This document shows positions 48,165 to 53,378 of a stretch of 64,000 nt of DNA, piece after piece; positions within the stretch are counted from its first letter, which is position 1, and the number at the start of each line of letters is the position of its first letter. Source of the DNA: Deltaproteobacteria bacterium. GTDB taxonomy: Bacteria > Desulfobacterota > Binatia > Binatales > Binataceae. The stretch lies in assembly GCA_021831785.1 (NCBI GenBank), contig JAKBMB010000007.1, forward strand, positions 186,001-250,000, read 5' to 3'. The notes beneath the pieces were generated by a model. It saw nothing but the letters and a program-made list of their open reading frames with translations. It did no database searches and had not been told where the DNA came from. A program made the translations under genes and the position numbers.

Positions 48165-48517
48165 CGGCGCGCGTCGAGTTGCGCCGCGCGGGCCCGTTCG
48201 CGCGGGTCTTTGGCCGGCGTCTTTTCGGGCGCGGCGACCATCGACCAATCAAGCCGCTCGGACGTTGCGCCTAAGGGCCAGGTTTTTGGCTCCGGCCGAG
48301 CGTTCTGCCCGCCACGCCGCGAGTTTGCAGGTCGTTAGTTTCGCTCGCGTGCCCGTTCCCGGCTTCACCCCTGCGAGTAGGTCCGCCGGCGCGCTGTCGC
48401 TCACCATCGTTGACCGCGGTGTTTGCAACGCGGCCCAGATACGGCAGAATTAGACGAGGCTACGTGACGCCGACGCGTTTTCCAGCGGCGCGCGCAGACC
48501 CCCAGGGGAGGATCACG
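48165..48517. other. Intergenic region upstream of the SOD gene
   Basis: 353 bp with no protein pattern; a run of the SOD frame is open from 48410 but has no conserved content before 48518. An AGGGGAGG site stands about 8 nt before the SOD ATG. Confidence 0.45.
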
Positions 48518-49099
48518 ATGGCATACAAGGAATACACTCCTAAGGATTACTCGCAACTAAAAGGACTGATTGGCATAACCGACGATCAGATTTCGGCTCA
48601 TCTGGACCTTTATCGGGGCTACGTCAAGAGGTGCAACAGCCTCCTCAAAACGCTCCAGGAGCTCGAGCCGTCCACCCAGGCGTGGCAGGAGGAACGCCGC
48701 CGCTTGGGGTGGGAGTTCAACGGCATGCGTCTGCATGAGGTCTATTTTGACCAGATCACGAAAGGCTCCGGCGCGGGCTCCGCAAAGCAAAAGATCAGCT
48801 CGGTGCTGTTGCCTGTCTTCAAAAGCTTCGACGAATGGATCCAGGAGCTCAAGAGCGCTGCCGTCATTCCAGGCATCGGCTGGGTCGCCGGGTATTTAGA
48901 CAAGCTGACCGGGCAGATGCTCACGGTATGGGTCAATGAGCACGACCAGGGGCACCTGGCGGGCCTTCAGTTGGTTTTCATCCTCGACGTATTCGAGCAC
49001 GCCTACGGCAGATATCTGCCGTTTACCGAGCGCAAGAAGTACGTGGACCACTATTTCGAGAACACCAACTGGGAGATAGTCGCCCAGCGGCTGGGCTAG
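48518..49099 (+). CDS. Fe/Mn superoxide dismutase family protein, divergent
   Basis: 193 residues from the ATG at 48518, preceded by an AGGGGAGG ribosome site. All four metal ligands of Fe/Mn SODs can be placed: His28 (ISAHLDLYRGYV), His73 (MRLHEVYFDQI), Asp157 and His161 (ILDVFEHAYG). But the N-terminal YxLPALPY-type segment is replaced and the domain connection is longer, so it belongs to a divergent branch that is often annotated only as superoxide dismutase-like. Cytoplasmic. Neighbour to the OsmC-family peroxidase, so both may serve oxidative defence. Confidence 0.82.
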   Translation: MAYKEYTPKDYSQLKGLIGITDDQISAHLDLYRGYVKRCNSLLKTLQELEPSTQAWQEERRRLGWEFNGMRLHEVYFDQITKGSGAGSAKQKISSVLLPVFKSFDEWIQELKSAAVIPGIGWVAGYLDKLTGQMLTVWVNEHDQGHLAGLQLVFILDVFEHAYGRYLPFTERKKYVDHYFENTNWEIVAQRLG

Positions 49100-49292: not shown

Positions 49293-49742
49293 ATGGGTGA
49301 CAAACGATATCTGACCGGCGAGGTGCGCACGTACAGCAGCGGCACGCCGGGACGCGCGCTGTGGCGGGCGCGCACGAACCATTTCGTGACCGATGACCTT
49401 ACCGACCACGGCGGCCCGGGCGAGGCAGCGACTGCGATCGAGCTTTTCCTGGGCGGGATTACGGCGTGCGCCGTTTTCATGGTCGAACGCCTGGCCAAGG
49501 AAGGGGGCTTGGCGCTTAAGCGCGCCGAGGTCAGGATGGACGCGATGTCCGATCGACAGGCGCTGCGCAGCGGCCCGCCGGTCTTGGATCGCGCCACGAT
49601 GCATTTCGAATTTGCCGGCATAACTGAGGATGCCGCCGCGAAGCTGGTCAAGACCTTCAAGGACAGGTGACCGCTCTATGGTTCGGTCGCCGTGGCGGTC
49701 GCCGACAAGATGACGGTTACGTTCGAGGTCAAGCCCGACTGA
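49293..49742 (+). CDS. OsmC-family peroxiredoxin-like protein, candidate selenoprotein (TGA at codon 126)
   Basis: The frame has an in-frame TGA at 49668-49670 and continues without change to a TGA at 49740-49742. Joined, it is a full-length OsmC protein of 149 residues: IELFLGGITACAVFMVERLA with Cys59, and LVKTFKDR-[TGA]-PLYGSVAV then KMTVTFEVKPD. In homologues the TGA position is the second catalytic cysteine (RCPLYG); E. coli OsmC uses Cys59 and Cys125. This is the replacement expected for selenocysteine. OsmC-like selenoproteins have been reported from metagenomes. A hairpin 13-35 nt after the TGA could serve as bacterial SECIS. The alternative is a recent nonsense mutation leaving a 125-residue product. 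No sel genes are in the window. Confidence 0.7.
49683..49705 (+). promoter_or_regulatory. Possible bacterial SECIS hairpin after the in-frame TGA
   Basis: TCGG (49683-49686) can pair with CCGA (49702-49705), and CGC (49688-49690) with GCG (49695-49697), around a loop of sequence CGTG, with a one-sided bulge. The apical loop is 20-24 nt after the TGA, within the range for bacterial SECIS elements, and has a G near its 5' side. The stem is short and was drawn by eye; folding energy was not computed. Confidence 0.3.
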
Positions 49743-49824
49743 CGGCGCGCAACCCGGGTCCGCGCGGCAACCTCGGTTCGCGCGGCAAGCCGGGTACGGC
49801 GCTCGACGCGTCGGGCACGCCTAT

Positions 49825-50959
49825 CTATGCGCCGGCGCGGCCGGCGCCGTCGCCTCTGCGTACACCGAGCAGGTAGGCCTCGATAAACTGGTCGATCTCG
49901 CCGTCCAGCACGGCATCCGTGTTGCCTACTTCCAGACCCGAGCGATGGTCCTTGACCATACGGTATGGGGTAAGCACGTAGGAACGGATCTGGCTGCCCC
50001 AGGCGATCTCTTTTTTTGCGCGGCTAAACTCTTCGAGCTTCTCTTGCTGCTTGCGCTGCTCCAGCTCGAACAGCCGCGCGCGCAGAATTTTCATCGCCGT
50101 GGCGCGGTTCTTGTGCTGCGAGCGCTCGTTCTGGCAAGTCACCACGATACCGGTGGGAAGATGGGTGATGCGTACTGCGGAGTCGGTTTTGTTAACGTGC
50201 TGGCCGCCGGCGCCGCTCGCGCGGAAGGTATCGACGCGCAGGTCGACCGGATTAATCGTGACCTCGATTTTCTCGTCGATCGCGGGATAAACGAAGACCG
50301 ACGCAAAAGACGTGTGCCGGCGCGCGTTGGCGTCGAACGGCGAGATGCGCACCAGGCGATGGATGCCCGCCTCGGCTTTCAAATAGCCGTAGGCGTAATC
50401 ACCCTCGATGGTCAAAGTCGCGCTCTTAATTCCGGCGCCCTCGCCCGCCTGGAAATCCACCACTTCGGCGCGATAACCGTGGCGTTCCGTCCACCTGAGA
50501 TACAGCCGCAGCAGCGTCTCGGCCCAGTCTTGCGCTTCGACGCCGCCGGCGCCCGGATGAATCGACATGATCGCTCCCAGTCGATCGTATTCGCCGCCTA
50601 ACATTATTCGCAGCTCCTGCGCCTGGAGCGCGGCGCGCGCCTGGGCCAGGGTCTTAGCGGCTTCGTGAGCGGCTTCGGAGTCCTCGGCGCCCTCCTCTTC
50701 GGCCATGGCGAGAAACAGCGCGGTCTCGTCCAGGAGCTCGCCGAGCTGGCGGCGGAGGCCAAGCTGTTCGTTGATCTGGTCTTGCTCTTTGCTCGCTGCC
50801 TGCGCCGCCTCCGGACGATCCCAGAAGTCGGGCTTGCTTGATTGCGCGAGCAACTCTGCGTGGCGGGCGTTCAGCGCGGGGAGGTCAAAGACGCCTCCCG
50901 AGCACGTCGAAGCGGGTCTGGAGATCCTTTAGTTGTTCCCGCATCTCGTTAAGCGCCAT
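49825..50959 (-). CDS. prfB: Peptide chain release factor 2, with programmed +1 frameshift
   Basis: RF2 recognises UAA and UGA and triggers peptide release. The long frame (to 50853) has the RF2 tripeptide SPF ([15 protein letters not shown]) and the GGQ motif ([16 protein letters not shown]). It lacks a natural N-terminus, which is found in the +1-shifted frame: ATG at 50959, [20 protein letters not shown] then GRRL and an in-frame TGA at codon 25 (50887-50885). Skipping one T (50887) joins it to [15 protein letters not shown]. The slippery CTT-TGA-C and an SD-like GGGAGG spaced as in E. coli are both present. Total about 370 residues. Last gene of the phoH-ybeY-lnt-prfB group. Confidence 0.96.
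50884..50899 (-). promoter_or_regulatory. prfB autoregulatory +1 frameshift site
   Basis: On the minus strand GGGAGG (50899-50894), CGT, CTT (50890-50888), TGA (50887-50885), C. Low RF2 lets the ribosome pause on TGA and slip one base on CTT, aided by the internal Shine-Dalgarno pairing three bases upstream. This is the known E. coli prfB mechanism; all its elements are visible here. Confidence 0.93.
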
Positions 50960-52823: not shown

Positions 52824-53378
52824 CTAAGCGTAAGCGAACATGTCGCGCAGAGGAATTACGCCCGCACACGGCGGATTGCCGTTGAATTGATCGTAGATCG
52901 CTTCGCTGTCATGCCACGTTTCGACCAGCGCCACCACGTGCTTGTTGTGCAACGGCAGGTCGCCCGCCAGGCGCCATTCGCGCTCAAAGCTCCAGTCTAC
53001 GGGCGGGTCGCGATCGAGTTGAAGCGCCACTGCGCGCCACAACTCCTCGCGCGGCAACAGGCCTCGCGCTTCATCCGCAGGCAGGTAGATCACGGGCCTG
53101 GCCCCGTTGCGGAAGGCGTAGCGCCGGTCTACCGCCACCCCGAACGGCTCATAGCGGCGCCGGTTGCGCCGTGTCAGCGCCCGCGCCAATTCTTCGAGCG
53201 ACGCGTCGAAAAAGCAGATGACCGGCCGTTGACCCCGGACCATGCGGCCGCTGGCGCGCAAAACGCCCTCGCGTAATATCGAGACCAAGTTATCAAACGC
53301 GCTGGCCTTCTTGGAGGCGCGGGTGAAATGCGCAAGTGTCGGCCCGCCGACACCAACTTTGAACCAAGAACTCTTCAT
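52824..53378 (-). CDS. AbiGi/DUF2971-like protein embedded in the ybeY-lnt operon
   Basis: 184 residues, soluble. The N-terminal AHFTRASKK and DNLVSILREGVLRASG, then VICFFDASLEEL, YEPFGVAVDRRYAFRNGARP and VIYL, and further on WSFEREWRL recall the AbiGi/DUF2971 group of abortive-infection-associated proteins ('HFT...L..IL..G', 'YG.YGIG', 'EREWR'); this comparison is from memory. The start overlaps the ybeY stop (ATGA) and lnt starts 3 bp after its end, so it is translated with rRNA-processing and lipoprotein genes. In that position a housekeeping use is as likely as defence. No signal peptide. Confidence 0.6.
   Translation of the reverse strand: MKSSWFKVGVGGPTLAHFTRASKKASAFDNLVSILREGVLRASGRMVRGQRPVICFFDASLEELARALTRRNRRRYEPFGVAVDRRYAFRNGARPVIYLPADEARGLLPREELWRAVALQLDRDPPVDWSFEREWRLAGDLPLHNKHVVALVETWHDSEAIYDQFNGNPPCAGVIPLRDMFAYA

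Follow-up and report, generated by a model that had tools for sequence, protein, structure and literature searches.

In Ohr, the first of the two active-site cysteines is activated by a glutamate and an arginine. Across Ohr/OsmC proteins, reduction of a peroxide leaves the two cysteines joined in a disulfide, which is in turn reduced by lipoylated proteins or by AhpD (PMC8945050). Selenocysteine (Sec) also occurs in this superfamily: a UxxT motif is given for the OsmC-like selenoproteins known so far (PMC1088965, PMC2398784, PMC9312934, PMC13188914), and NCBIfam has a model for OsmC-related (seleno)proteins (NF041052, OsmC_like_Se, cut-off 95 bits). We have identified a candidate selenoprotein gene of the same superfamily in a stretch of 64,000 nucleotides from a member of Binataceae, hereafter the window. 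Its product (P0001) reaches 32.4 bits against NF041052, below the cut-off, and its in-frame TGA lies at the other active-site cysteine.

The osmC-type coding sequence spans 49293-49742 (+) and translates as MGDKRY...KDR-U-PLYGSVAVAV...KPD, 149 residues including the predicted Sec126, with a terminal TGA at 49740-49742. The internal TGA, codon 126 (49668-49670, +), is followed by 23 sense codons, and the first active-site cysteine, Cys59, is encoded by TGC (49467-49469, +). In a joint alignment Cys59 and U126 fill both OsmC active-site cysteine columns, the column of codon 126 being occupied by Cys in 30 of 37 Cys-type OsmC homologues. The earlier note on this DNA had already reported that the OsmC frame goes on beyond the TGA, that the TGA falls on the second cysteine of homologues and that Cys59 is retained; all three observations hold, as do its coordinates. 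The read-through protein matches the Pfam OsmC profile (PF02566) over residues 41-133 with 43.2 bits (E 5.7e-11; cut-off 27.5), whereas the product ending at TGA126 scores only 32.0 bits (E 1.7e-7); since the score falls in the truncated product, the stretch after the TGA belongs to the domain. With a probability of about 95%, we propose that this gene encodes a small protein of the stress-protection type, an OsmC-superfamily selenoprotein of 149 residues with Cys59 and Sec126, in which UGA126 is decoded by SelB and tRNA-Sec(UCA) under guidance of a downstream hairpin.

A protein search of 41 genomes of the family recovered 12 other carriers, 50-81% identical to the window protein in the search alignment (49-82% in the multiple alignment) and with one internal TGA each, and an alignment-based search of 148 genomes of the class added a fourteenth copy from another family (L046 in G439, on a small contig of an assembly 88% complete), which also has the TGA. 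The orthologue set thus comprises the window gene, 12 genes from other genomes of its family and one from a different family of the class; two copies from a separate collection (L002 from isolate FK3.bin99 and L003 from Centralia_MAG_33) were taken to be the same as G030 and G024 and were not counted twice. The DNA, read directly, has TGA at codon 126 in all 14 orthologues, in the context K(R/D/N)x-TGA-PL(Y/F)GS, and a Cys codon (TGC or TGT) at this position in none of them. A profile search of 395 genomes of the phylum returned only family members already known and no close Cys-form orthologue that could have supplied a closely matched Cys/Sec pair, and neither tblastn against plasmids nor a scan of viral contigs gave any relatives. 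A TGA carried by every one of the 14 orthologues is more than chance.

The gene has no counterpart in 28 of the 41 family genomes. It lies directly upstream of alaS on the same strand in 7 of 11 neighbourhoods compared, and its neighbour in the window and in the two closest relatives is prfB, within an lnt-ybeY-phoH-alaS cluster (neighbour identities were established partly by profile scan and otherwise read from the encoded sequences). Because the locus is conserved beside alaS, phoH, ybeY and lnt, the distribution speaks for a gene inherited vertically over a long time at one fixed place, with scattered losses, and not for recent transfer.

Several features of the surroundings deserve mention in their own right. 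The convergent prfB gene (49825-50959, -), just downstream of the osmC gene, encodes release factor 2, which reads UGA, and has the classical autoregulatory frameshift site CTTTGAC after a GGGAGG motif (TGA at 50885-50887). Two different UGA recoding sites are therefore found about 1.2 kb apart, which is probably a coincidence. Directly upstream of the osmC gene is a gene for a protein with a Fe/Mn superoxide dismutase C-terminal domain (48410-49099, +; PF02777, 50.2 bits), an arrangement that is not conserved in relatives. A small gene at 52824-53378 (-) shows a weak, below-cut-off similarity to AbiGi (PF10899, E 8e-4); its position between ybeY and lnt is conserved in four compared neighbourhoods. 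A degenerate 18-bp tandem repeat of 2.9 copies (49745-49795) lies just past the osmC stop.

Purifying selection is equally strong on either side of TGA126: over all pairs of the 14 orthologues, pN/pS is 0.41 5' of the TGA and 0.39 3' of it, so that the relaxed selection after the stop by which a decaying gene might have been recognised is not seen. Within the downstream part, pN/pS is 0.19 in codons +1 to +11 and 0.50 further on. Cys59, position 126, P127, L128, G130, S131, A133, V134 and A135 are invariant in the 14-sequence alignment, as are R21, E50 and V146. These data bear directly on a pseudogene, in which TGA126 would be a nonsense mutation of a TGC or TGT codon. A single base change turns a Cys codon into TGA, and errors are possible in metagenome-assembled sequence; but the TGA is common to 14 genomes from two families at identities down to 49%, the downstream codons are under selection just as strong, and the silent sites of the hairpin described below are conserved. 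Conservation of the TGA in 14 of 14 orthologues already refutes this explanation, to which we assign a negligible probability and which the earlier note had rightly considered the less likely one.

The published bSECIS model demands a loop of 3-9 nt with G in the first two loop positions, a stem of 4-16 bp, a distance of 16-37 nt from the UGA and a minimum free energy (MFE) of -7.5 or lower (PMC13188914). A hairpin of this type is predicted at 49684-49701 (+), with a 7-bp stem (49684-49690/49695-49701) and a 4-nt loop, CGUG (49691-49694), 20 nt after the TGA. All 14 copies have G in the first two loop positions, the 4-nt loop and the 20-nt spacing, and their consensus is CGGUCGC-NGUN-GCGACCG. 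Across the 14 sequences 96.9% of cells pair in this hairpin, compared with 18-64% in slid controls. Pair 19-32 is G-C in 11 sequences, A-U in two and G-U in one, and the covariation score was reached in 14 of 500 shuffles. Only six of 129 scorable third-codon positions are invariant (-48, -4, +5, +6, +9 and +10), and the last four coincide exactly with the wobble sites of the hairpin stem (hypergeometric P 1.4e-6, a guide value, as the stem was defined from folds of the same 14 sequences); the wobble sites of the linker (+1 to +4) and of the loop (+7, +8) vary.

Folding the region with a bSECIS model, as had been suggested for this gene, gave a divided answer: the hairpins of 13 of the 14 orthologues fit the model in every respect, whereas that of the window agrees in loop, spacing and pairing but reaches only -5.8 kcal/mol against the limit of -7.5. 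It is the weakest of the 14, the others ranging from -9.4 to -12.5 kcal/mol, because it contains two tandem G-U pairs. The unconstrained MFE of the window copy favours a different fold (-16.8), its MFE z-score taken alone is weak (-1.6 to -2.3), and when the hairpin codons are shuffled synonymously, P is 0.25 for this copy vs 0.005-0.09 for the others. A search of the region against Rfam yielded no match. A stem formed by nt 2-7/28-33, part of the window MFE fold, was considered as an alternative conserved element and rejected, with 69% of cells pairing and no covariation. The window element may be weaker than those of its relatives, or the lower stem of the alternative fold may contribute. 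This weak hairpin is the softest part of the Sec case.

The same constraint on downstream silent sites would also be expected if TGA126 were a real stop, the 125-residue product being functional and the sequence beyond it owing its conservation solely to an RNA or overlapping element; the truncated product, moreover, still exceeds the Pfam OsmC cut-off (32.0 vs 27.5 bits). However, downstream pN/pS stays at 0.39, and past the hairpin it is 0.50 with V146 invariant, and a protein ending here would lack the second cysteine site as well as the final helix and strand of the fold. We therefore regard a genuine stop as very improbable.

The machinery for selenocysteine, which the earlier note had proposed to look for, is complete in the genome of the window: SelA (E 4e-159), SelB (378 bits), SelD (383 bits; its gene directly adjoins selB) and a tRNA-Sec with the anticodon UCA (71 bits). 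The selD gene (L031, G000:C4:205303-206229) is itself a selenoprotein gene with an in-frame TGA (CKAAG-U-AGKLG) followed by a hairpin, UUAGGUCC-GGC-GGACCUAA. SelA occurs in 13 of 13 family carriers of the window gene and in 38 of all 41 family genomes, so that its co-occurrence with the gene is consistent with the Sec reading and, at such a frequency, not informative. Near-cognate read-through could in principle place another amino acid at UGA126, by Trp or Cys suppression or under a changed code. Yet the UCA-anticodon tRNA found is tRNA-Sec, the Sec machinery is complete and a SECIS-like constraint is present. TGA ends 16 of the 37 long non-overlapping ORFs of the window; its use as an ordinary stop there disposes of a changed genetic code as the explanation, and decoding as an amino acid other than Sec is exceedingly improbable. 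With the machinery, the TGA in all orthologues, the selection and the hairpin-type RNA constraint taken together, the proposal of the earlier note that UGA126 is Sec is supported: the internal TGA is almost certainly read as selenocysteine, the gene being a candidate selenoprotein by every computational test available.

The predicted structure of the window protein (pLDDT 74.7, with low confidence around residues 17-22 and 35-37) finds 6mjn in Foldseek (E 9.4e-7), along with E. coli OsmC (1qwi) and P. aeruginosa Ohr (1n2f). We infer that the protein would act as a dimeric thiol/selenol peroxidase or a related reductase. A peroxide or hydroperoxide would oxidise one member of the Cys59/Sec126 pair, and a selenenylsulfide, Cys59-S-Se-Sec126, would then form, by homology with Ohr/OsmC, and might be reduced by a dithiol of lipoyl, AhpD or thioredoxin type. 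The likeliest division of labour is that Cys59 attacks and Sec126 resolves. In the reading that we prefer, placing Sec at the resolving-type position would make both resolving and recycling faster and guard against overoxidation.

Within the selenoprotein reading, the roles may also be reversed, Sec126 attacking the substrate and Cys59 resolving, with the OsmC catalytic order inverted. Sec is usually placed at the attacking nucleophile, and the alignment does not clearly place the catalytic Arg and Glu of Ohr in register with the window protein, E50 standing 9, not 10, residues before Cys59. Cys59, however, is invariant and stands in the peroxidatic column, and the invariant R21 and E50 could activate it; on balance, the inverted order seems rather unlikely. 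The predicted model is too poor at 17-22 and 35-37 to settle which residue attacks. Cys59 as the attacking and Sec126 as the resolving residue stays our preferred assignment.

The position of Sec matters, as the chemistry of the redox pair depends on it, and one fold in which selenium was gained twice, once at each active-site position, would offer a natural experiment on its attacking versus resolving use. If the inverted order were true, the two OsmC selenoprotein lineages would be natural mirror images. It is a tentative idea, and a doubtful one in this full form, that an OsmC selenoprotein lineage arose independently a second time in the window clade, with selenium at the resolving-type position and with Sec126 attacking and Cys59 resolving. 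There is also a practical side: standard gene calling would end the members of the clade at residue 125, and the UxxT family model misses them, the score being far under its cut-off, while the 14 sequences at hand suffice for a family model that recovers them. Compared with the literature searched, in which the deep-Sep paper makes no mention of OsmC, and with NCBIfam, we claim the predicted Sec at the second OsmC cysteine as new, although it may be mentioned in recent papers on selenoprotein families.

With the Ohr, OsmC and YhfA thiol peroxidases, of which Ohr and OsmC depend on lipoyl groups, the window protein shares the fold and both active-site positions. Those enzymes differ in having two cysteines, and the window sequence scores far under the NCBIfam Ohr and OsmC cut-offs (21.7 bits for P0001 with the Ohr model NF052637, cut-off 240; the orthologue L020 has 18.8 bits with TIGR03561, cut-off 88.85). 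Closer at hand is a Cys-containing paralogue of the same bacteria (L050, L117: PGDAWSPEHL...C, SC-LVSAS), which is the nearest Cys group to the window clade in a maximum-likelihood tree of 59 OsmC proteins (95/87 support). It has two active-site cysteines; it differs from the window clade by an identity of about 28% (L025), the lack of an in-frame TGA and a glutamate 10 residues before the first cysteine, vs 9 for E50.

Among genes of the NF041052 type, the searches of the phylum and the class found 11 with a TGA, which lies at the first active-site cysteine in every case, the second active-site residue being Cys throughout (EQGCYVMQ). Examples of their Sec contexts are ALSIGF-U-LLTQLSR (UxxT) and VGF-U-MFSQL (UxxS); two of these 11 first-Cys selenoproteins (L056 and L133) depart from the published UxxT motif with a UxxS (U-MFS). 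In the joint alignment, for which U was entered as C, the correspondence is unambiguous: the Sec of the UxxT proteins falls in the Cys59 column and their Cys in the Sec126 column. The tree, in which some deep branches are long and their exact order is unsure, groups the 14 rows of the window clade and the 8 of the UxxT clade each into a single clade with 100/99 support; the two Sec clades do not join, and at least two Cys/Sec changes are needed.

The earlier note was thus right that OsmC-like selenoproteins had been described, but those carry Sec at the other active-site cysteine, and the window gene therefore represents a different kind. The two have in common the OsmC superfamily, Sec at one active-site cysteine, a bacterial SECIS or, in the window clade, a predicted hairpin of that type downstream, and the Sec machinery. 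They differ in that the UxxT proteins have Sec at the first cysteine (SLAF-U-LLTQL) and keep the second, whereas the window clade pairs Cys59 with the predicted Sec126. In its predicted sequence, the window clade is a mirror image of the UxxT proteins, and not another member of that family.
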